Source: a virus. Taken from it: a stretch of 48,511 nt of DNA. The translations under genes were made by a program, and so were the position numbers. Of this stretch, positions 5,180-19,807 are shown in pieces. Under the pieces are notes generated by a model. The model worked only from the letters and a program-made list of their open reading frames with translations. It searched no databases and was not told the DNA's origin. How positions within the stretch are numbered: the stretch's first letter is position 1; every line of letters starts with the position of its first letter. The stretch lies in the IMG/VR virus record IMGVR_UViG_3300034024_000092, positions 1 to 48,511 of that record. One strand, written 5' to 3'.

Positions 5180-5391
5180 TGGGGGCGCTCCGTAAAACGG
5201 CGGATGAGGCGTTGCGCCAGTCGCTCTGCGGCCTGTGGACACAGCGCAGCCCAAAGCCTCAGAAGCAGTAGGAGCGGCCAGACCAGTCCGCCGATGGCGG
5301 AAAACAGAACCTCCAGGGGACTCCTGGCGACGATCATTTCGCTAAAAAAGAAGGCCGCCGCTATGAGCAGGTAAATCCACAGCGCGCTCAC
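5176..5391 (-). CDS. Small inner-membrane protein (two TM)
   Basis: A 71-aa protein with two hydrophobic segments, ALWIYLLIAAAFFFSEMIVA and VLFSAIGGLVWPLLLLLRLW, followed by an Arg-rich cytoplasmic tail. GTG start at 5391 in a GTGA overlap. It could be a superinfection-exclusion or accessory membrane protein, but nothing specific supports that. Confidence 0.75.
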   Translation of the reverse strand: MSALWIYLLIAAAFFFSEMIVARSPLEVLFSAIGGLVWPLLLLLRLWAALCPQAAERLAQRLIRRFTERPQ

Positions 5392-11567: not shown

Positions 11568-13052
11568 TCAGGGCTCATTTGCGGGGTTTTGCGGCCGGCG
11601 ATAGCAGGTGGTGAACTTTTCGGTGCCGGGAACCTGCTCGATCAGGCCGTTTTTGATCATGCGAGCGAAGATGCGCTTCATCACATAATCCGCCGTGATG
11701 TGCGTGACCTGGCGTGCCTGAGAATTCTTGATCGTCCCGTGCGCATCAACGAACTCAAGGATGGTTTCCTCCGGCGCGGCAAGGGGCTCGTGCTTGATCG
11801 TAACGAGAAAGCTGTTCTCTGATTGCTCGAGCACGGGCGCCTTTAGCCCGACCTCGTACATCCTTCGAAAGGCGGTGTTGAGGCCCTCGCCCACGTCCTT
11901 ATTCGGAGGGTCGGGGAACTTGTTGAGCATACGGACTATGGCACCGTTGCGGTGTGCCCGCTCTCGCAGCACATTGGCGAGCGTGACGTGCGCGGCGAGC
12001 CGACCGGGGCTTTGGACCTCTATACGGTTGTCGAAGATGCGAATGTGTACGTCGTCCGCGATGCTGTAGTCGCGGTGGATGAGGGCGTTGGTGACGATCT
12101 CGTGGATCGTCTCCTGCGGGTAGGTGATCGCCTCCAGTCCGCCATCAGTCATTCGAGGTATCTTCTCCACCTCTTCCACGGTCCGCGCGACGGCCTCGCG
12201 GATTTGCTCAATGAGCGGCCCCTCGACAGTGATCGGGTGGAAGGCGAGCGCGTCACGGAAGCCTTCAGCTTCTTTGGTTTTGTAACGATAAATCTTGACC
12301 CCGCAGTGCTTCGGCAGGTGTGCTTGGGGCAGATCACCAAAGAGCAGCAAGCCCGCAACTGTCGGCCTCCCGTCGCGAACAAGGGCCTGCTTGCGTAGCC
12401 AGTCCTCCGGCGCGGACTGCGGCACGACTTGCGACATAAACCGGCTGGTCACTTCGGATCCCGTGATCGTCGTCAGATCGATGTTCAGCAACTCTGTTTC
12501 GTAGGTTGCTACGCCCTTCGCGTACTCAAGCCTCCGCATGAGCTCCGGCGTGTTCTGAGCAATGGATTGGGCGCCGCGCCGAAGGTAGGCAGTCCCGTTC
12601 GAACAAACCGTCACCCGGTCGGTCTTGTTGATTATCGCGCGGAGCACCAGTCCGGGCTTGTTCGAACAGCTTAAGAATGCGTAGTCGAAGTAGGTCCCAA
12701 GCGGGAACGCCTGTTCGAACGCTTGGATGTGGCCGTTGGCGTCCTCCTGGCGCCTGAACCCGTCCCACTCGCGAGCGCCATCGCGATTCTCCGCAATGCC
12801 CACGTAGAGCTCGCCACCGTCAGCGTTCGCGAAGGCAGACAGGGTGCGCATGAGCTTGGCCGGCGCAACTTCGCGGCCTTTCAGCTCGTACGTCTGTGCT
12901 TCGTCCAACGCCATGATCAGAGCGGCTTCGTCGGGCGTGAGTTCGAACACCTCCAGCGAGGACTTAACACCATGTGTTCGAACAGGTCCGCTTGAAGCCT
13001 GTTCGAACACTTTTGCATCCGGGTGTTCGAACAGATCGGGCTGCTTGGTCAT
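11568..13052 (-). CDS. AlbA_2/Schlafen-type ATP-binding protein
   Basis: A 494-aa protein. Residues about 45-170 match the AlbA_2 (Schlafen-like, DNA/RNA-binding) domain: TYELKGREVAP then LSAFANADGGELYVGIAEN. Residues 307-350 carry an HATPase_c_4 signature: the N-box EIVTNALIHRDYS (Asn322) and FDNRIEVQSPGRL. About 434-490 look like a winged helix (TILEFVDAHGTIKNSQARQV). This is the COG2865 layout, known as predicted regulators, and related proteins occur among phage-defence candidates. It is third in the repressor operon, so probably lysogen-expressed. Its first 460 bp hold seven GTTCGAAC palindromes. Domain call strong; function unknown. Confidence 0.88.
   Translation of the reverse strand: MTKQPDLFEHPDAKVFEQASSGPVRTHGVKSSLEVFELTPDEAALIMALDEAQTYELKGREVAPAKLMRTLSAFANADGGELYVGIAENRDGAREWDGFRRQEDANGHIQAFEQAFPLGTYFDYAFLSCSNKPGLVLRAIINKTDRVTVCSNGTAYLRRGAQSIAQNTPELMRRLEYAKGVATYETELLNIDLTTITGSEVTSRFMSQVVPQSAPEDWLRKQALVRDGRPTVAGLLLFGDLPQAHLPKHCGVKIYRYKTKEAEGFRDALAFHPITVEGPLIEQIREAVARTVEEVEKIPRMTDGGLEAITYPQETIHEIVTNALIHRDYSIADDVHIRIFDNRIEVQSPGRLAAHVTLANVLRERAHRNGAIVRMLNKFPDPPNKDVGEGLNTAFRRMYEVGLKAPVLEQSENSFLVTIKHEPLAAPEETILEFVDAHGTIKNSQARQVTHITADYVMKRIFARMIKNGLIEQVPGTEKFTTCYRRPQNPANEP
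12597..13032. repeat. Seven dispersed GTTCGAAC palindromes
   Basis: Copies at 12597-12604, 12660-12667, 12713-12720, 12941-12948, 12976-12983, 13001-13008 and 13025-13032. Four are the full TGTTCGAACA. Relative to the codons they fall in three different frames (Phe-Glu four times, Cys-Ser-Asn twice, Val-Arg-Thr once), so the DNA and not the protein is conserved. I saw only two further copies in the whole window (17635-17642 and 18421-18428). Confidence 0.9.
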
Positions 13053-13071: not shown

Positions 13072-13473
13072 TCAGCGCGCCGCCGCTTGGCGCTCTAGCC
13101 GCGACAGCAGATCGCGCAACCCGTCCACGTGGGTCGAGACCATCTCGGCCGAATTTTCGATCTGCGCGGCACACTCGGCGACGGTGATGGGCCGGTTGCC
13201 CTGCTCCTGCGCAGCTTTGGCGAACAGCACCGACTCCACTCGCTGAGCCTCGGTCGTGAGGTGGTCCGCCCCAATGTCAGCGACGTCTTGGCGGGCCTTC
13301 AGCACATATGGATGCGCCGAGCCCCCGGGGTAGACCCGCGAGCAACGTCCAAGCGCCTCGGCCATGTCGCCGTAGCTGTCGATGATCCGGGTTAACTGCT
13401 GGTCGAGCAGCGCCTCAGCGTCTCTCTGGAGGGGCGTCTGCGTAGCGAGGACCAGAAGAAAAGCGAAGATCAC
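13072..13473 (-). CDS. Exported hypothetical protein
   Basis: A 133-aa protein with a short N-terminal hydrophobic stretch (MIFAFLLVLATQTPLQRDA), read as a signal peptide or anchor, followed by a helical domain with two cysteines (Cys44 in LGRCSRV, Cys101 in VAECAAQ) that could form a periplasmic disulfide. GTG start in a GTGA overlap with the repressor stop, so it is translated with the repressor in lysogens. A surface or superinfection role is possible but unproven. Confidence 0.72.
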   Translation of the reverse strand: MIFAFLLVLATQTPLQRDAEALLDQQLTRIIDSYGDMAEALGRCSRVYPGGSAHPYVLKARQDVADIGADHLTTEAQRVESVLFAKAAQEQGNRPITVAECAAQIENSAEMVSTHVDGLRDLLSRLERQAAAR

Positions 13474-13994
13474 GCGCGTTTCCTCTCTTTGACCGGGGTC
13501 GCAGAAGTCTCGAGTTTGGGTGTGGGTAACAGCGCCATATCGCGTCCGGCGGTATCCAGATCGTCAGGGGCATGATCAGAAACGAAACCCGTGCGGAGAC
13601 CCAATGCTGACGCAACCCGTCGGATCCATTTGTCGGACGGCGCGTCGGGCTGATTTTCCCAGAACTCTACCGTCGAGGCCGGCACTTCCAGGGCCTGTGC
13701 GAGCTCGTCAACAGTCTGCTCCCTGAACACTCGCCAAGCCTTAAGGTGGTTGGGCCGCGGCTCCGATCCAGGCGCTGCGCCAAATATATCTTCCACCGCA
13801 AGGTTGTAGGCGCCCGCGATCTTGGCTTCGTTCTCGCCACTCAGGCTGCCGGTGCGCTTACCCTTCGTCTCCACGACGTAAGAACGGATCGTATTGTAAT
13901 CGACCTTCGACGCCACGGCGACGAGGTTCATGTTGAGGCCGCTGGCTCTCATCCACGCGATGAAATTGTCGCGGCGTGCGTCTTGAAGTGACAT
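13470..13994 (-). CDS. Prophage repressor with two HTH domains
   Basis: A 174-aa protein. Residues about 9-72 form one XRE/CI-like HTH (FIAWMRASGLNMNLVAVASK, then YNTIRSYVV). Residues about 84-136 form a second (FREQTVDELAQALEVPASTV, then RRVASALGL). There is no C-terminal S24 peptidase domain, so the usual RecA-stimulated self-cleavage should not operate. I chose ATG 13994; the longer start at 14063 would place operators inside the gene. It has no clear ribosome binding site and may be leaderless, as lambda cI is from PRM. It heads an operon with two possible conversion genes. Confidence 0.83.
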   Translation of the reverse strand: MSLQDARRDNFIAWMRASGLNMNLVAVASKVDYNTIRSYVVETKGKRTGSLSGENEAKIAGAYNLAVEDIFGAAPGSEPRPNHLKAWRVFREQTVDELAQALEVPASTVEFWENQPDAPSDKWIRRVASALGLRTGFVSDHAPDDLDTAGRDMALLPTPKLETSATPVKERKRA

Positions 13995-14015
13995 CGCCGC
14001 GCATACTGAAGCGTG

Positions 14016-14079
14016 ATACGGATTCTCGTAACCGCGAAGTTCCGTAGTTCCCCTTGCCAGCATCTACGGAATATCGTAG
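14016..14079. promoter_or_regulatory. Right operator region (three sites)
   Basis: The best site, CTACGGAATATCGTAG (14064-14079), matches the left operator at 15 of 16 bases in reverse orientation. Two weaker sites lie at 14032-14047 (right half TTCCGTAG, 11/16) and 14016-14031 (TACG-N6-CGTA, 10/16). They fill the gap between the divergent repressor and cro-like genes. A GANTC (GATTC, 14021-14025) lies in the last site. Confidence 0.7.
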
Positions 14080-14082
14080 TGC
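14054..14082 (+). promoter_or_regulatory. Rightward promoter for the cro-like gene
   Basis: TTGCCA (14054-14059), a 17-bp spacer and TAGTGC (14077-14082); the spacer and part of the -10 are covered by the operator at 14064-14079. Transcription would start near 14089, at the cro ATG, which has no ribosome binding site. A leaderless message is therefore likely. The -10 is weak. Confidence 0.45.
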
Positions 14083-14088
14083 TGGCGA

Positions 14089-14301
14089 ATGGACGTCGAC
14101 AGCATCATCAGGGCCATCGAACAAGCCGCCGACGAGCAGGGGCTTCCTGAGCTCTCGAAACGGTCGGGGATCCCGTACACAACGTTGATGGACTGGCGTC
14201 GACACGGTTGGCGCCCTCGCGCCGTGCAGGTGTTGGAGCGCCTGGCCGAGGCCGCCAAGCCGGCCAACGACGACCCCCTTCCCCATTCGGAGGCGGCGTA
14301 G
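14089..14301 (+). CDS. Cro-like HTH regulator
   Basis: A 70-aa protein with a YdaS/Cro-type HTH: IIRAIEQAADEQGLPELSKR then IPYTTLMDWRRHGWRPRAV. It diverges from the repressor across the operator region, the classical place for Cro, and should repress the lysogenic promoter during lytic growth. The start at ATG 14089 lacks a ribosome binding site, consistent with a leaderless transcript. Confidence 0.83.
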   Translation: MDVDSIIRAIEQAADEQGLPELSKRSGIPYTTLMDWRRHGWRPRAVQVLERLAEAAKPANDDPLPHSEAA

Positions 14302-14354
14302 GCCATGCCTCTGACCCCCCTGCCGCGACGGACTGAAAACCACGGCGCGGCGGC

Positions 14355-14396
14355 CTCTGCCGGGTGCGTCAGGCCCCCCCAGCGCACCCGGCAGAG
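14355..14396 (+). terminator. Perfect 14-bp hairpin after cro
   Basis: Arms CTCTGCCGGGTGCG (14355-14368) and CGCACCCGGCAGAG (14383-14396) pair perfectly around a 14-nt C-rich loop. There is no T-run, so it may be an attenuator, an antitermination target or a factor-dependent terminator between cro and the right operon. The rest of 14302-14419 holds no gene that I can see. Confidence 0.7.
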
Positions 14397-14419
14397 CGTG
14401 TCTCTCACCGGAGGCCCCG

Positions 14420-14686
14420 ATGTCTCTGTGTGAGACCGTCATCGTGGCTTCCGAAGAGTTGGCGGACCTTCTGCTGGCTGCCGACAACGCGGAGGACGAC
14501 GGGGACAACCTGCGGCTTCTGAGGCGCGCGATCGACGCCGCCCACGCCGTCAAGGTCGTGAACCATGGCGCACGGGCACTGCTTGCGGCCGCAACAGCCG
14601 ACATCGCCCAGCTGCACCCTGACGCTCTTCAAGCCGCGAATGATCACGGCGCCCTCCCTCTTCAACCCGACCCCATCATCGCGTGA
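14420..14686 (+). CDS. Hypothetical early protein (88 aa)
   Basis: A strong ribosome binding site (GGAGG, 14410-14414) precedes ATG 14420. The protein is helical and acidic, with SEELADLLLAADNAEDDGD and ALLAAATADIAQLHPDALQA. It is followed by a GTGA overlap with the CII-like gene. Function unknown; the position is reminiscent of small regulators next to cro. Confidence 0.72.
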   Translation: MSLCETVIVASEELADLLLAADNAEDDGDNLRLLRRAIDAAHAVKVVNHGARALLAAATADIAQLHPDALQAANDHGALPLQPDPIIA

Positions 14687-15180
14687 CGGCAATCGCCGTT
14701 CACCCAAAGAAAGCAGCCGAACAAATGGGAGTTGCCACGCACCGCCCCGCCATCAGCAGCAGAGAGCATGCGCGCCTGGCGGGTGACCTGATCGAGGCCT
14801 GCGGCGGGCTGCTGGAGTCCTCGCGCGCTTGCCGGGTGAGCGAGGGCGTTCTCTCGACCTACCAGAACCCGAACCGGCCGGAGTGCAACATGCCGGCCGA
14901 TGTCATGGCCGATCTGGAGAAGCATGCCGGACGGGCGATCTACTCCAGCTTCATCCGCCGCAATCTCGGCCAACAGGTCGAGCCCGGGTGTCTGCGCGAC
15001 CTCGGCTGCCTGCTGACCGAGGAGGGTGCCGACTTCCAGTCCTACATCCGCCGCGCCCTGGCTGACGGCCGGCTGAGCGCCAACGAGATCGACGAAGCCC
15101 GCCGCGAGCTGGCCCAGGCCGAGTCCGTGCTGATCCGCTGCCGGGCCTCCCTTGATGCCGCCGAGCAGACTTTTCCCTGA
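14683..15180 (+). CDS. CII/CP76-like phage regulator
   Basis: A 165-aa protein. The segment HARLAGDLIEACGGLLESS, then VLSTYQNPNRPECNMPADV and EKHAGRAIYSS, resembles the Phage_CP76 family of CII-like regulators, which bind DNA through an HTH and control the lysis/lysogeny decision. The helical C-terminus (ALADGRLSANEIDEARREL) fits oligomerisation. Start GTG 14683 (GTGA overlap); ATG 14725 is an alternative. Family call moderate. Confidence 0.62.
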   Translation: MTAIAVHPKKAAEQMGVATHRPAISSREHARLAGDLIEACGGLLESSRACRVSEGVLSTYQNPNRPECNMPADVMADLEKHAGRAIYSSFIRRNLGQQVEPGCLRDLGCLLTEEGADFQSYIRRALADGRLSANEIDEARRELAQAESVLIRCRASLDAAEQTFP

Positions 15181-15228
15181 CCACCACGGGACTGGCCGCC
15201 CCGTTGAGCGGTCGTGAAGGAGGGCCAG

Positions 15229-15843
15229 ATGGCCAAGACACTAACCAGCAAGGCGGAGGCCCCGGAAGCGGGATCATCCCCCGCTATCCCCAACCGCAAC
15301 GAGGAAGCTGTCTTCCTGTCGCACCTGAACAAGCTGCGCATCCAGGAAGCGAAGAAGGCGATCGCCAAGGCTGCTTACGACACCGAGGCCAACGCGCTCA
15401 CCGACCTGTTCCGGGAGGCCAAGACGGACGGTTTCACCCGCAAGGAACTCCAGGCGATCCTGGACGACGGCAAGGCCAGCCGCCGCGATCTGACGGCCGA
15501 GGAAGAGCGTCGGGCGCAGCTGCGATCCTGGGCGGGTCTGCCGGCCGGAACACAGGCCGATCTGTTCGCCTCGCCCTCCCCGGCGCAGGACGAACTGCAT
15601 GCGGAGGGCCAGGGCTATACGGCCGGCCTTCGCGGCGACGACAGCACCATGCCCGACAACTTCGCGCCGCATCACGCGCCGGCGTTCCTTCGCGGGTGGC
15701 ATGCCGGCCAGGAGAAGCTGGCATGGGCGATGTCGGAAGCCGGTCATAACCCTGAGAAGGCGGACAGCGGAGTTAAGCTGGCTGGGCCGGTCCTGGTCGC
15801 CGACAACGACGCGACCGACGCCAAGAAGCCGGACGCCGCCTGA
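15229..15843 (+). CDS. Hypothetical protein, RMF/GapR-like segments
   Basis: A 204-aa protein with AAGGAGG (15217-15223) before ATG 15229. Residues about 28-75 are a charged helical region ending DGFTRKELQAIL, loosely reminiscent of GapR-type proteins. The later segment EGQGYTAGLRGDDSTMPDN then PAFLRGWHAGQEKL resembles the Gly-Trp pattern of ribosome modulation factor. Both resemblances are weak. It sits in the early right operon ahead of the HNH-AP2 gene. Confidence 0.65.
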   Translation: MAKTLTSKAEAPEAGSSPAIPNRNEEAVFLSHLNKLRIQEAKKAIAKAAYDTEANALTDLFREAKTDGFTRKELQAILDDGKASRRDLTAEEERRAQLRSWAGLPAGTQADLFASPSPAQDELHAEGQGYTAGLRGDDSTMPDNFAPHHAPAFLRGWHAGQEKLAWAMSEAGHNPEKADSGVKLAGPVLVADNDATDAKKPDAA

Positions 15844-16394
15844 TGCCCGGCAAGCCGATGAGCGCAGGCCTGCTTGGCGCGAGCAAGAGCAATCCCGTCA
15901 CCAACCTGACGGCTGAGCAGGCACGCGCGCTGTGGACCTACGAACCAGAAACCGGCCTTCTCCGTTGGCGTGTCACAACGTCGACCCGTTACAAGGCAGG
16001 GTCGGTCGCCGGCTACATCCAGCCGAAAGGCTATGTGGTCGTCGGCTACGGCTACCGTCTCTGGTCCGCTCATCGGCTCGCATGGCTCATCGTAACGGGC
16101 GAGTGGCCGTTCGGAGAGATTGACCACATCGACGCCGACAAGGCGAACAACCGATGGTCCAATCTACGCGATGTTCCCAAGTCGCTGAATGGCGCCAACG
16201 TCCCCGCGCGGCGCAGCAATACGAGCGGGTTCAAGGGCGTCTCTTGGCACAAGCACCATGGCCGCTGGTCGGCCGCTATCCAGAAGGACGGACGGCAGCG
16301 CCACCTGGGATACTTCGATGATCCGGAACAGGCACACGCCGCTTATGCGACCGCCGCCAACGATCTGTTTGGTGACTGTGCGAGGGCCGCGTGA
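15843..16394 (+). CDS. HNH-AP2 homing-type endonuclease
   Basis: A 183-aa protein with an HNH_3 core (SAHRLAWLIVTGEWPFGEI, DHIDADKANNRWSNLRDV) and a C-terminal AP2 DNA-binding domain (SGFKGVSWHKHHGRWSAAI, then HLGYFDDPEQAHAAY). This pairing is typical of free-standing homing endonucleases in phages. The start overlaps the preceding stop (TGATG). It may be a mobile passenger inserted before the resolvase gene. Confidence 0.9.
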   Translation: MPGKPMSAGLLGASKSNPVTNLTAEQARALWTYEPETGLLRWRVTTSTRYKAGSVAGYIQPKGYVVVGYGYRLWSAHRLAWLIVTGEWPFGEIDHIDADKANNRWSNLRDVPKSLNGANVPARRSNTSGFKGVSWHKHHGRWSAAIQKDGRQRHLGYFDDPEQAHAAYATAANDLFGDCARAA

Positions 16395-16900
16395 TGTTCT
16401 TGGCTCTCGATTTGGCAACCTGCACGGGCTTCTGCTTCGGCCCCGCCGATACAGGCGAGGTGCCGACGCTCGGCCATGTCCGCATGCCCTCGACCGGACC
16501 CGACGTGGGCCGGTTCCTGTGCGCATGGCAGGACTGGCTGGAGCCCAAGGTGCGCGAGGTCGAGCCGACGCTGATCGTGTTTGAAGCCCCGATCCTGGCC
16601 GGACAGACGCAGATCGCCACCACCCGGAAGCTCCAGGGCATGGCCGGCGTCACCGAAATGGTCGGACACCGGCTGGGGATCGAGGTCGCTGAGGTCTCGA
16701 CCAGCCATGTGAAGAAAGCCCTCACCGGGCATGGGCGAGCGGAGAAGCCTCAGATGATGGCCGCTGCCCGCCACTACGGCTTCGACCCCCAGGTCTCCGA
16801 TGAAGCGGACGCATTCGGCATCTGGCTTTGCGCGCTGCGGCTGCGCCACCCGGAGCAGGCGGGGCGCTGGGATCCAATGAATTTCGGGAGGGCAGGATGA
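16391..16900 (+). CDS. RuvC-like Holliday junction resolvase
   Basis: A 169-aa RNase H-fold nuclease with acidic residues in the expected places: Asp7 (FLALDLATCTGF), Glu65 (IVFEAPILAG) and Asp137/Asp140 (VSDEADAFGIW). It would resolve branched replication or recombination intermediates, complementing the RecE/RecT-like pair. Start GTG 16391 (GTGA overlap) or ATG 16394. Confidence 0.87.
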   Translation: MMFLALDLATCTGFCFGPADTGEVPTLGHVRMPSTGPDVGRFLCAWQDWLEPKVREVEPTLIVFEAPILAGQTQIATTRKLQGMAGVTEMVGHRLGIEVAEVSTSHVKKALTGHGRAEKPQMMAAARHYGFDPQVSDEADAFGIWLCALRLRHPEQAGRWDPMNFGRAG

Positions 16901-18153: not shown

Positions 18154-18332
18154 ACCGCCGCGATCTCGTCGCCCTGGAGCAGCACTACGCCGGCATGCTC
18201 CGCCGTGAAGCGAAGGCGCGGGCCAAGCGGTATCCAAAGGCCGCAGAGCAGTTCCTCCGCTGGGCCGACGCCGCCGATGCGCGGGCCGAGGTGATCCGGT
18301 GCGGCCCCTTGTTCGATGAGGAGCGGGCATGA
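18150..18332 (+). CDS. Small hypothetical protein (60 aa)
   Basis: MNRRDLVALEQHYAGMLRR then YPKAAEQFLRWADAADARA: a single charged helical domain. ATGA overlaps with both neighbours, directly before the helicase gene. Confidence 0.72.
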   Translation: MNRRDLVALEQHYAGMLRREAKARAKRYPKAAEQFLRWADAADARAEVIRCGPLFDEERA

Positions 18333-19807
18333 TGGAGCCGGAAGCCGAAGCCCCCTCGCTGCCCCATAACCTTGAAGCCGAGCAGGCCCTGCTGGGCGCG
18401 CTGATGTTCGACAACGCCGTGTTCGAACGCCTGCCCGACCGGTTGCGCGGCGCCCACTTCTACGAGCCGTTCCATCAGCGCCTGTTCGACCAGATCGCCG
18501 GGTCGATCACCAAGGGCATGATCGCCGAGCCGATGCTGCTGCGCGACGCCTTCGGCGAGGACCCGGCCTTCGAAGCTTTCGGGGGGTCGGTCTACTTGTT
18601 CGATCTCGTGGACCGGGCGCCGCCTTCCCGCAATGCGCCCGACTATGGCCGGGCCATCTACGACCAGGCGATCCGCCGCGACCTGATCCGCATCAGCGGG
18701 GACATCATCAAGGATGCGACCGATCCGACCATCACCGGCATGGAGCACGTCGGGAAGGCGGAGGCGGCGCTGTTCACCCTCGCTGAAACCGGTGAGCAGA
18801 CAAAGGCCGTGGCGACCTTCTCCGAAGCGCTGGAGGGCGCCCTGGCCCAGGCGGAGGCCGCTTACCGCCGGGATGGGCAACTCACCGGCCTGGCGAGCAA
18901 ACTGACGGACCTGGACCAGAAGCTGGGCGGTCTGCACCCCTCCGACCTCCTGATCGTCGCGGGACGGCCTTCCATGGGCAAGACTGCGCTGGCGACGAAC
19001 ATCGCCTTCAACGTCGCCAAGGCATGGCATGGCGAACCCGATCCCGACGCGCCGGGCGGCATGCGGACCATCGCCGGCGGCCGGGTATTTTTCGGCTCGC
19101 TTGAGATGTCCAAAGAGCAGCTGGCGCTCCGCATCATCTCGGACGCTGCGAGCGTGTCGAACGACCGTATCCGCAAAGGGCTGATCGACGGAGCCGAGTT
19201 CCGGCGCATGAAGGACGCCCAGGCCGAGCTCCAGTCGATCCCCCTGCATATCGACGAGACCGGCGGCATCCACATCGCCAAGCTCTGCGCCCGCGCTAGG
19301 CGCCACCACAGGAAGCACGGTCTCGATCTGATCGTGGTGGATTACCTCCAGCTCATCACCACGGATGGCGGAAAGGGCTCCAATCGCGTCCAGGAGGTCA
19401 GCCAGATCACCGGGGCGCTCAAGGCCCTGGCCAAGGAGCTGAACGTCCCGATCCTCGCGCTTTCTCAGCTCAGCCGGCAGGTCGAGAGCCGGGACGACAA
19501 GCGGCCGATGCTGTCCGACCTGCGAGAGTCCGGCTCAATCGAGCAGGACGCCGACTGCGTCATGTTCGTCTACCGCGAGAGCTACTACCTCAGCCGCACC
19601 GAGCCCAAACCCGGCACTGACGCTCACCTGAAGTGGATCGAGGCCATGCAGGCCTGCCAGGGCCAGGCCGAGGTCATCATCGGAAAGCAGCGCCACGGCC
19701 CCATCGGCACAGTGCGCCTGTCCTTTCATGAAGACACCACCCGCTTCGGCAACTTGGCCCGCGACAGCGACTATCCCGAGGCCCGTCTTCCCTATGGTGA
19801 CGCATGA
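18329..19807 (+). CDS. dnaB: Replicative DNA helicase (DnaB family)
   Basis: A 492-aa helicase. The N-terminal domain (about 1-110) begins LPHNLEAEQALLGALMFDN, as in DnaB. The RecA-like domain has Walker A GRPSMGKT (212-219), the SLEMSKEQLALR motif and Walker B LIVVDYLQLI (Asp338). SQLSRQVESRDDKRP and DLRESGSIEQDADCVMF are further DnaB motifs. It would unwind the phage replication fork and needs loading, perhaps by the DUF1376 protein encoded next. Two ATGs (18329, 18332) are possible; the first makes an ATGA overlap. Confidence 0.96.
   Translation: MMEPEAEAPSLPHNLEAEQALLGALMFDNAVFERLPDRLRGAHFYEPFHQRLFDQIAGSITKGMIAEPMLLRDAFGEDPAFEAFGGSVYLFDLVDRAPPSRNAPDYGRAIYDQAIRRDLIRISGDIIKDATDPTITGMEHVGKAEAALFTLAETGEQTKAVATFSEALEGALAQAEAAYRRDGQLTGLASKLTDLDQKLGGLHPSDLLIVAGRPSMGKTALATNIAFNVAKAWHGEPDPDAPGGMRTIAGGRVFFGSLEMSKEQLALRIISDAASVSNDRIRKGLIDGAEFRRMKDAQAELQSIPLHIDETGGIHIAKLCARARRHHRKHGLDLIVVDYLQLITTDGGKGSNRVQEVSQITGALKALAKELNVPILALSQLSRQVESRDDKRPMLSDLRESGSIEQDADCVMFVYRESYYLSRTEPKPGTDAHLKWIEAMQACQGQAEVIIGKQRHGPIGTVRLSFHEDTTRFGNLARDSDYPEARLPYGDA

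Follow-up and report, generated by a model that had tools for sequence, protein, structure and literature searches.

A viral DNA of 48,511 nt (positions 1 to 48,511 of IMG/VR record IMGVR_UViG_3300034024_000092; hereafter the window) carries a cluster of short palindromes inside the gene for a 494-amino acid (aa) protein with SLFN_AlbA_2 and HATPase_c_4 domains (11568..13052, minus strand). We consider it probable that this cluster is an intragenic autoregulatory operator array, bound by the protein that the gene encodes. Selection acts here on the DNA itself, on an element of 10-bp palindromes that stand 24-25 bp apart and are tied to the AlbA_2 gene in several contexts.

A palindrome array within an AlbA_2/HATPase gene

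The exact 8-bp palindrome GTTCGAAC occurs nine times in the window, with starts at 12597, 12660, 12713, 12941, 12976, 13001, 13025, 17635 and 18421. Seven of these copies fall within 436 bp (12597-13032), all inside the open reading frame (ORF) at 11568-13052 on the minus strand, and four of the seven lie within the first 112 bp of the gene. Dinucleotide shuffles of the window yielded a mean of 0.65 copies and a maximum of 3, which rules out chance by composition and bears out a preliminary description of this DNA, in which about one copy per window had been expected. The extended 10-bp form TGTTCGAACA, also reported there for four copies, was found four times in the AlbA_2/HATPase gene and nowhere else in the record. 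The copy at 18421 sits in a DnaB-like ORF rich in F-D and F-E codons and looks like a coding coincidence.

On the gene strand, the TTCGAA cores of the seven copies start at +21, +45, +70, +105, +333, +386 and +449 relative to the ATG. The first three sites, all of them TGTTCGAACA, form the core array: site 1 (13024..13033) in DLFEHP codons, site 2 (13000..13009) in VFEQ codons, 24 bp from site 1, and site 3 (12975..12984) in VRT codons of another phase, 25 bp from site 2. Site 4 (AGTTCGAACA, 12940..12949, VFEL codons) follows 35 bp from site 3. The more distal sites are site 5 (TGTTCGAACG, 12712..12721), which is read as QAFEQAF, and sites 6 (TGTTCGAACA, 12659..12668) and 7 (CGTTCGAACA, 12596..12605), both of which are read as CSN. 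Sites 1-3 are held by the N-terminal leader of the protein (codons 1-32; 12957..13052, minus strand), which is predicted to be disordered and is absent from most homologues.

Given that four of the seven copies encode F-E, for which TTC GAA is a natural codon pair, the array might simply reflect a repeated peptide, such as LFEQ, together with codon preference. However, the copies are read, from the ATG towards the 3' end, as FE, FE, VRT, FE, FE, CSN and CSN, and thus occupy the three codon phases described previously (FE four times, VRT once, CSN twice). Moreover, when synonymous codons of the gene were shuffled with the protein kept, the mean was 0.6 copies and the maximum 4, and seven copies were reached in none of 5000 shuffles. 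The leader is predicted to be disordered and is missing from most homologues, and in an unrelated phage (L087, see below) the copies lie upstream of the gene, in several short-ORF frames. Coding chance or a repeated peptide is refuted as the main cause by the shuffles, the three phases and these upstream copies, and we give this explanation almost no weight. The seven-copy excess is real, is not accounted for by composition, codon usage or protein, and is an unusual finding.

Conservation of the array with its gene

The nearest homologue, from a related phage (L001), encodes an AlbA_2/HATPase protein that is 75% identical and holds four copies of the palindrome. Sites 1-3 are found at +21, +45 and +70 in both genes, with identical spacings of 24 and 25 bp (site 1 at 5020-5029 in L001), and site 5 has a counterpart at L001 5336, whereas sites 4, 6 and 7 are not kept. 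The preliminary description had looked to close homologues for the motif at the same places, and this was borne out for sites 1-3 and 5 only. This homologue retains just the three start-proximal copies and that at 12713, so that the functional core probably does not span all 436 bp but is confined to 12975-13033.

The leader peptides of the two proteins (MAKQPDLFEHPGKRVFEQKGAEVVRT in L001 vs. MTKQPDLFEHPDAKVFEQASSGPVRT in the window) share, past the first eleven residues, almost nothing but residues encoded by the sites. The local nucleotide alignment of the two genes does not extend into the array, owing to divergence of the linkers. The four conserved 8-mers show zero base differences; of the 343 identical residues encoded elsewhere, by contrast, only 142 have matching codons. 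Shuffling the synonymous codons of L001 never reproduced its own four copies (0/5000). The unchanged 8-mers and the codon shuffles of both genes support the earlier proposal that selection acts on DNA.

The window and L001 share many genes at 34-74% identity. No match was found in L001, however, for the window repressor, the 133-aa ORF or the Cro-like ORF that neighbor the array-bearing gene. Judging from this comparison, the immunity region has been swapped right up to the AlbA_2 gene and the array has stayed with the gene.

Arrays were also present in more distant relatives. The unrelated phage L087, whose protein is 52% identical, carries CTGTTCGAACA, CTGTTCGAACAG, CCGTTCGAGCA and CCTGTTCGAACAGG at spacings of 25, 24 and 23 bp, three of them exact and one a variant. 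This array is situated 242 to 170 nt upstream of the ATG and not inside the gene, in a stretch covered by short ORFs. In a 55% homologue (L002), four A/T-flanked TTCGAA cores (ATTCGAAT, TTTCGAAC, TTTCGAAG and TTTCGAAT), with spacings of 23 and 24 bp, surround the probable start in other codons; a density of this kind (four TTCGAA cores within 117 bp) arose in one of 20000 simulated 1-kb stretches. In a Paraburkholderia homologue (L126), a single perfect 16-bp palindrome, CACTGTTCGAACAGTG, was found at 5376-5391, and the near-identical viral contig L154 has the same 10-bp core at the same place.

In a phylogenetic tree, the window, L001, L002 and a 59% homologue from a Brevundimonas strain (L125; Caulobacteraceae) were grouped together (support 100/99), and L087 was grouped with L126 and L154 (100/100). 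Exact TGTTCGAACA was present within -300..+1550 of the gene in four of the six members of this clade vs. none of 33 other homologues (Fisher p=0.00018, a value that is optimistic owing to phylogenetic relatedness, mainly that of the window and L001). Homologue searches of sampled Alphaproteobacteria and of the family to which the Paraburkholderia genome belongs added only one new distant member, and matches in named phage and plasmid records were all below 40% identity. As judged by these sequence comparisons, the array is a DNA element that accompanies the gene, and its conserved core comprises three sites and not all seven. The statistical excess, the constraint at the DNA level, the co-occurrence with the gene in different contexts, the conserved spacing and the persistence of the array where the repressor was exchanged are all established.

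Palindromic copies placed behind a start codon could also act in the mRNA, by pairing as hairpins that either serve as targets of the AlbA_2 domain or affect translation. Indeed, neighboring copies pair as 12-13-bp inverted repeats, folding was stronger than in shuffles (z -2.5 in the window, -3.5 in L001 and -3.8 in L087), and AlbA_2 folds of the Schlafen type, including the structural matches SLFN11/13/14 of the 494-aa protein, act on RNA. Repeated palindromes of any kind fold well, however, and stems would need neither an identical palindrome in each copy nor a fixed sequence. Furthermore, L002 had no folding excess (z -1.1). RNA-level control is therefore, in our estimation, rather improbable.

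The motif is rare in other sequences. A search of 2.9 million viral contigs detected pairs of TGTTCGAACA 6-36 bp apart at only ten places, and genes of the AlbA_2/HATPase family accounted for two of these. Scans of the viral contigs for GTTCGAAC pairs, GTTCGAAC triples and TTCGAA triples returned mostly unrelated repeats, and L001 was the only AlbA_2 locus among 91 TTCGAA triples. A general host motif was ruled out: a 3-Mb Brevundimonas genome contained 13 TGTTCGAACA copies, all single, and no close pair was present in 390 genomes of the Caulobacteraceae, the family of the L125 strain. Neither of the two refuting observations named in the preliminary description was therefore made: no comparable clustering was seen in these genomes, and L001 has sites at the same places.

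Several other viral contigs contain arrays of the same core. In L161 (6432-6520), L097 (1545-1625) and L164 (860-940), CTATGTTCGAACATAG palindromes and variants stand four in a row at 22-23 bp just upstream of a gene for a RepL/HTH_36-like protein. In L112 (4441-4472), a TGTTCGAACA pair and a degenerate third copy lie inside a DUF1376 gene adjoining a DnaB-like gene, possibly as an intragenic origin. Similarly spaced arrays of this core can therefore serve other systems. Separately, a 24-bp tandem repeat, CTGTTCGAACGCGACGTGCGCGAC, was observed at both ends of one viral contig (L083 11240-11405 and L066 1-85), where it probably represents one array cut by the contig ends; it is unrelated to the AlbA_2 gene.

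The lambda origin of replication lies inside the O gene, and the palindromes might likewise be origin iterons, or a centromere-like site, that happen to lie in the AlbA_2 gene. The likeness to phage and plasmid replication iterons (lambda O gene, RepL-type plasmids) extends to tandem, similarly spaced palindromic or repeated sites that are sometimes intragenic, and the core itself is common to L161, L097 and L164; the RepL/HTH_36 and DUF1376 arrays thus lend this explanation some support. The present array is, however, tied to the AlbA_2 gene and not to a replication initiator gene. The DnaB-like gene of the window (18329-19807) is more than 5 kb away and has no array, the array goes with the AlbA_2 gene and not with replication genes in L001, L087 and L002, and the AlbA_2 protein is not among known initiators. 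Accordingly, we regard a replication or partition element as very unlikely.

The encoded protein and its genomic setting

The 494-aa protein matched Pfam SLFN_AlbA_2 (PF04326; E=4e-10, residues 51-164, 40.7 bits against a gathering cut-off of 25.3) and HATPase_c_4 (PF13749; E=1e-14, residues 334-419, 54.3 bits against a cut-off of 26). Its AlphaFold2 model had a mean predicted local distance difference test (pLDDT) score of 83, with values below 50 for residues 1-32. At the C-terminal end, the model shows the helix-strand-helix-helix-strand order typical of a winged helix. From this order and from alignment conservation, residues ~427-485 (11598..11774, minus strand) are a predicted winged-helix domain and the candidate DNA-binding part of the protein. 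The best fold match was DIP2311 (3lmm), followed by Schlafen domains and GHKL kinases. DIP2311 has the same Pfam domains and came first in both the fold and the sequence search (Foldseek E=5.7e-20 over 508 columns), but the domain arrangement is uncertain because the whole-chain TM-score vs. 3lmm was 0.41. PADLOC returned matches only to pAgo/SIR2-type models, via shared domains.

The AlbA_2 gene is the third of three same-strand ORFs and appears to be the last gene of the lysogenic repressor operon. The first gene of this apparent operon encodes a helix-turn-helix (HTH) repressor-like protein of 197 aa (13470..14063, minus strand), and between the two lies a 133-aa ORF with no family hit (13072..13473, minus strand). 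A small divergent HTH protein of 70 aa is encoded in a Cro-like position (14089..14301, plus strand). In two further viral contigs (L172 3115-3921 and L174 3074-3919), an AlbA_2/HATPase gene was observed ~80 nt behind a gene for a CI-type (HTH plus S24-like) repressor, which suggests that the lysogenic operon is a habitual place of this gene. Given its placement in the repressor operon, the protein likely has a role in the lysogen. The early region of the window also contains an HNH endonuclease gene (15843-16394; phrog_99, E=3e-65).

This setting raises the question of whether a different regulator, from phage or host, binds the array, with the AlbA_2 gene merely its target. An immunity repressor acting at stoperator-like sites would be one example. 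In favor of such a regulator, the gene lies within the repressor operon of the window, and in L172 and L174 it directly follows a CI-type repressor gene; phage repressor sites that stop elongation also provide a precedent (PMC9283540). The preliminary description had named the repressor among the possible ligands, but this is unlikely, since L001 keeps the array and has no homologue of the window repressor. In addition, no site with up to two mismatches was found at 13409-16659, a stretch that spans the repressor/Cro intergenic region. The array is still present in the unrelated phage L087, and any host regulator would need to occur in every host of these phages. We thus consider binding by another regulator unlikely, if somewhat less so than an action in RNA or in replication.

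Two further candidates were rejected. The actinobacterial/Firmicutes LexA box is CGAAC-N4-GTTCG, and the present half-sites are reversed in order relative to it (PMC2248561). Mimicry of a tRNA T-loop was considered, as GTTCGAAC resembles the TpsiC loop and AlbA_2 is Schlafen-like; on inspection, the flanking T and A cannot form a T stem.

A second clade of the family has a dyad of its own. In four homologues (L140-L143) from Herminiimonas, Stenotrophomonas, a Gammaproteobacterium and Caenimonas, the TGTTCGAACA motif is absent, and the last ~110 nt before the gene contain a conserved dyad consisting of ACACCGGTTA, 8-9 nt and TAAnCGGTGT. A second element consists of ACACCGGTTAA, ~10 nt and AACGGGTGT, with some half-sites degenerate in single members. 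These double-dyad regions (L140 3935-4032, L141 3905-3995, L142 3885-3985 and L143 1785-1890) lie directly before the AlbA_2/HATPase genes, have flanks that are otherwise unlike each other, and are likely to be clade-specific operators, as far as sequence can tell. In the alignment, the recognition-helix region reads ADY/ADH in the TGTTCGAACA clade vs. SEN in L140-L143. Such differences are consistent with a family whose clades each recognize an operator of their own, but phylogeny by itself could also produce them.

A model of autoregulation and its implications

We infer the identity of the binder, its dimeric binding and its roadblock action as follows. The AlbA_2 gene is the only constantly present gene, its product has a predicted DNA-binding domain, and the twofold symmetry of the sites suits a dimer such as GHKL domains form. 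Of the earlier suggestions, a binding array for a regulator fits the sequences best, with the gene's own product as the likeliest candidate. According to this model, the 494-aa protein would bind TGTTCGAACA as a symmetric dimer, and neighboring dimers would pack every 24-25 bp just past the start codon. The AlbA_2 gene would be transcribed from the repressor promoter as a distal operon gene, and in the window and L001 the protein on its intragenic sites would halt the elongating RNA polymerase. In this way, the protein would limit its own level and leave the upstream repressor untouched. The distal position in the repressor operon would also explain why the array is placed inside the gene, as a site there limits only that gene. 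In L087, the same array stands upstream of the gene and not inside it.

The preliminary description knew of no described case, which is too strong. The Kpn2I restriction-modification system has a controller protein, C.Kpn2I, that binds within the coding region of its own gene and is reported to form an elongation roadblock that limits its own mRNA (PMC6237814). Here too, symmetric sites lie inside the coding region of the (candidate) regulator, and they are under selection on DNA beyond coding. The two cases differ in that C.Kpn2I is a restriction-modification controller, whereas here the protein is a 494-aa AlbA_2/GHKL/winged-helix protein, the copies number three to seven, and the roadblock is deduced. 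By analogy, we propose that the AlbA_2/HATPase protein may work like C.Kpn2I, and not that it is a member of that group. The stoperators of cluster A mycobacteriophages, which are thought to stop transcription elongation in lysogens, are likewise repeated phage DNA sites, but these are 13-bp, asymmetric, distributed genome-wide and bound by a monomer of the immunity repressor (PMC9283540), whereas the present sites are 10-bp palindromes, seven of nine in one gene. In the literature searched, no report of such an operator or of an autoregulated AlbA_2 protein was found, nor was any DNA target of the SLFN_AlbA_2/HATPase_c_4 family; one is proposed here.

Several observations weigh against autoregulation through the array. 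Arrays were sought in ~30 further homologues and none was found; most homologues have no palindrome array, and autoregulation of this kind is therefore not general. Two members of the clade itself fit poorly: no array is present in L125, and the single site of L126 lies at the wrong (3') end of the AlbA_2 gene. As the phages of the window and L001 are related, the agreement between them counts as one lineage and not two. The 24-bp period does not set the sites on one helix face. Promoter scans around the gene predicted none in the window, L001 or L087, so that the operon structure and the roadblock are read from gene order alone. Finally, both the binder and its binding are predictions from sequence.

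A more far-reaching, and distinctly speculative, possibility is that the array is the first sequence-specific DNA target of the Schlafen-like AlbA_2/GHKL family, whose clades would have their own docking arrays in or before their own genes. The protein on its array would then be a switch based on ATP-gated assembly, silencing a possible nuclease or defense activity of AlbA_2 in the lysogen until displaced.

AlbA_2/HATPase proteins span many bacterial phyla as well as phages. Given a 10-bp candidate target with conserved spacing, together with a clade that lacks it and can serve as a natural control, DNA binding by this family becomes directly testable. The array is also a clear case of regulatory DNA written in the codons of a disordered N-terminus, and kept in the nearest relative though most of the inter-site peptide has changed. 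This arrangement presumably serves to restrain the final gene of a repressor operon while sparing the repressor, a rationale that could hold for other prophage genes placed there.
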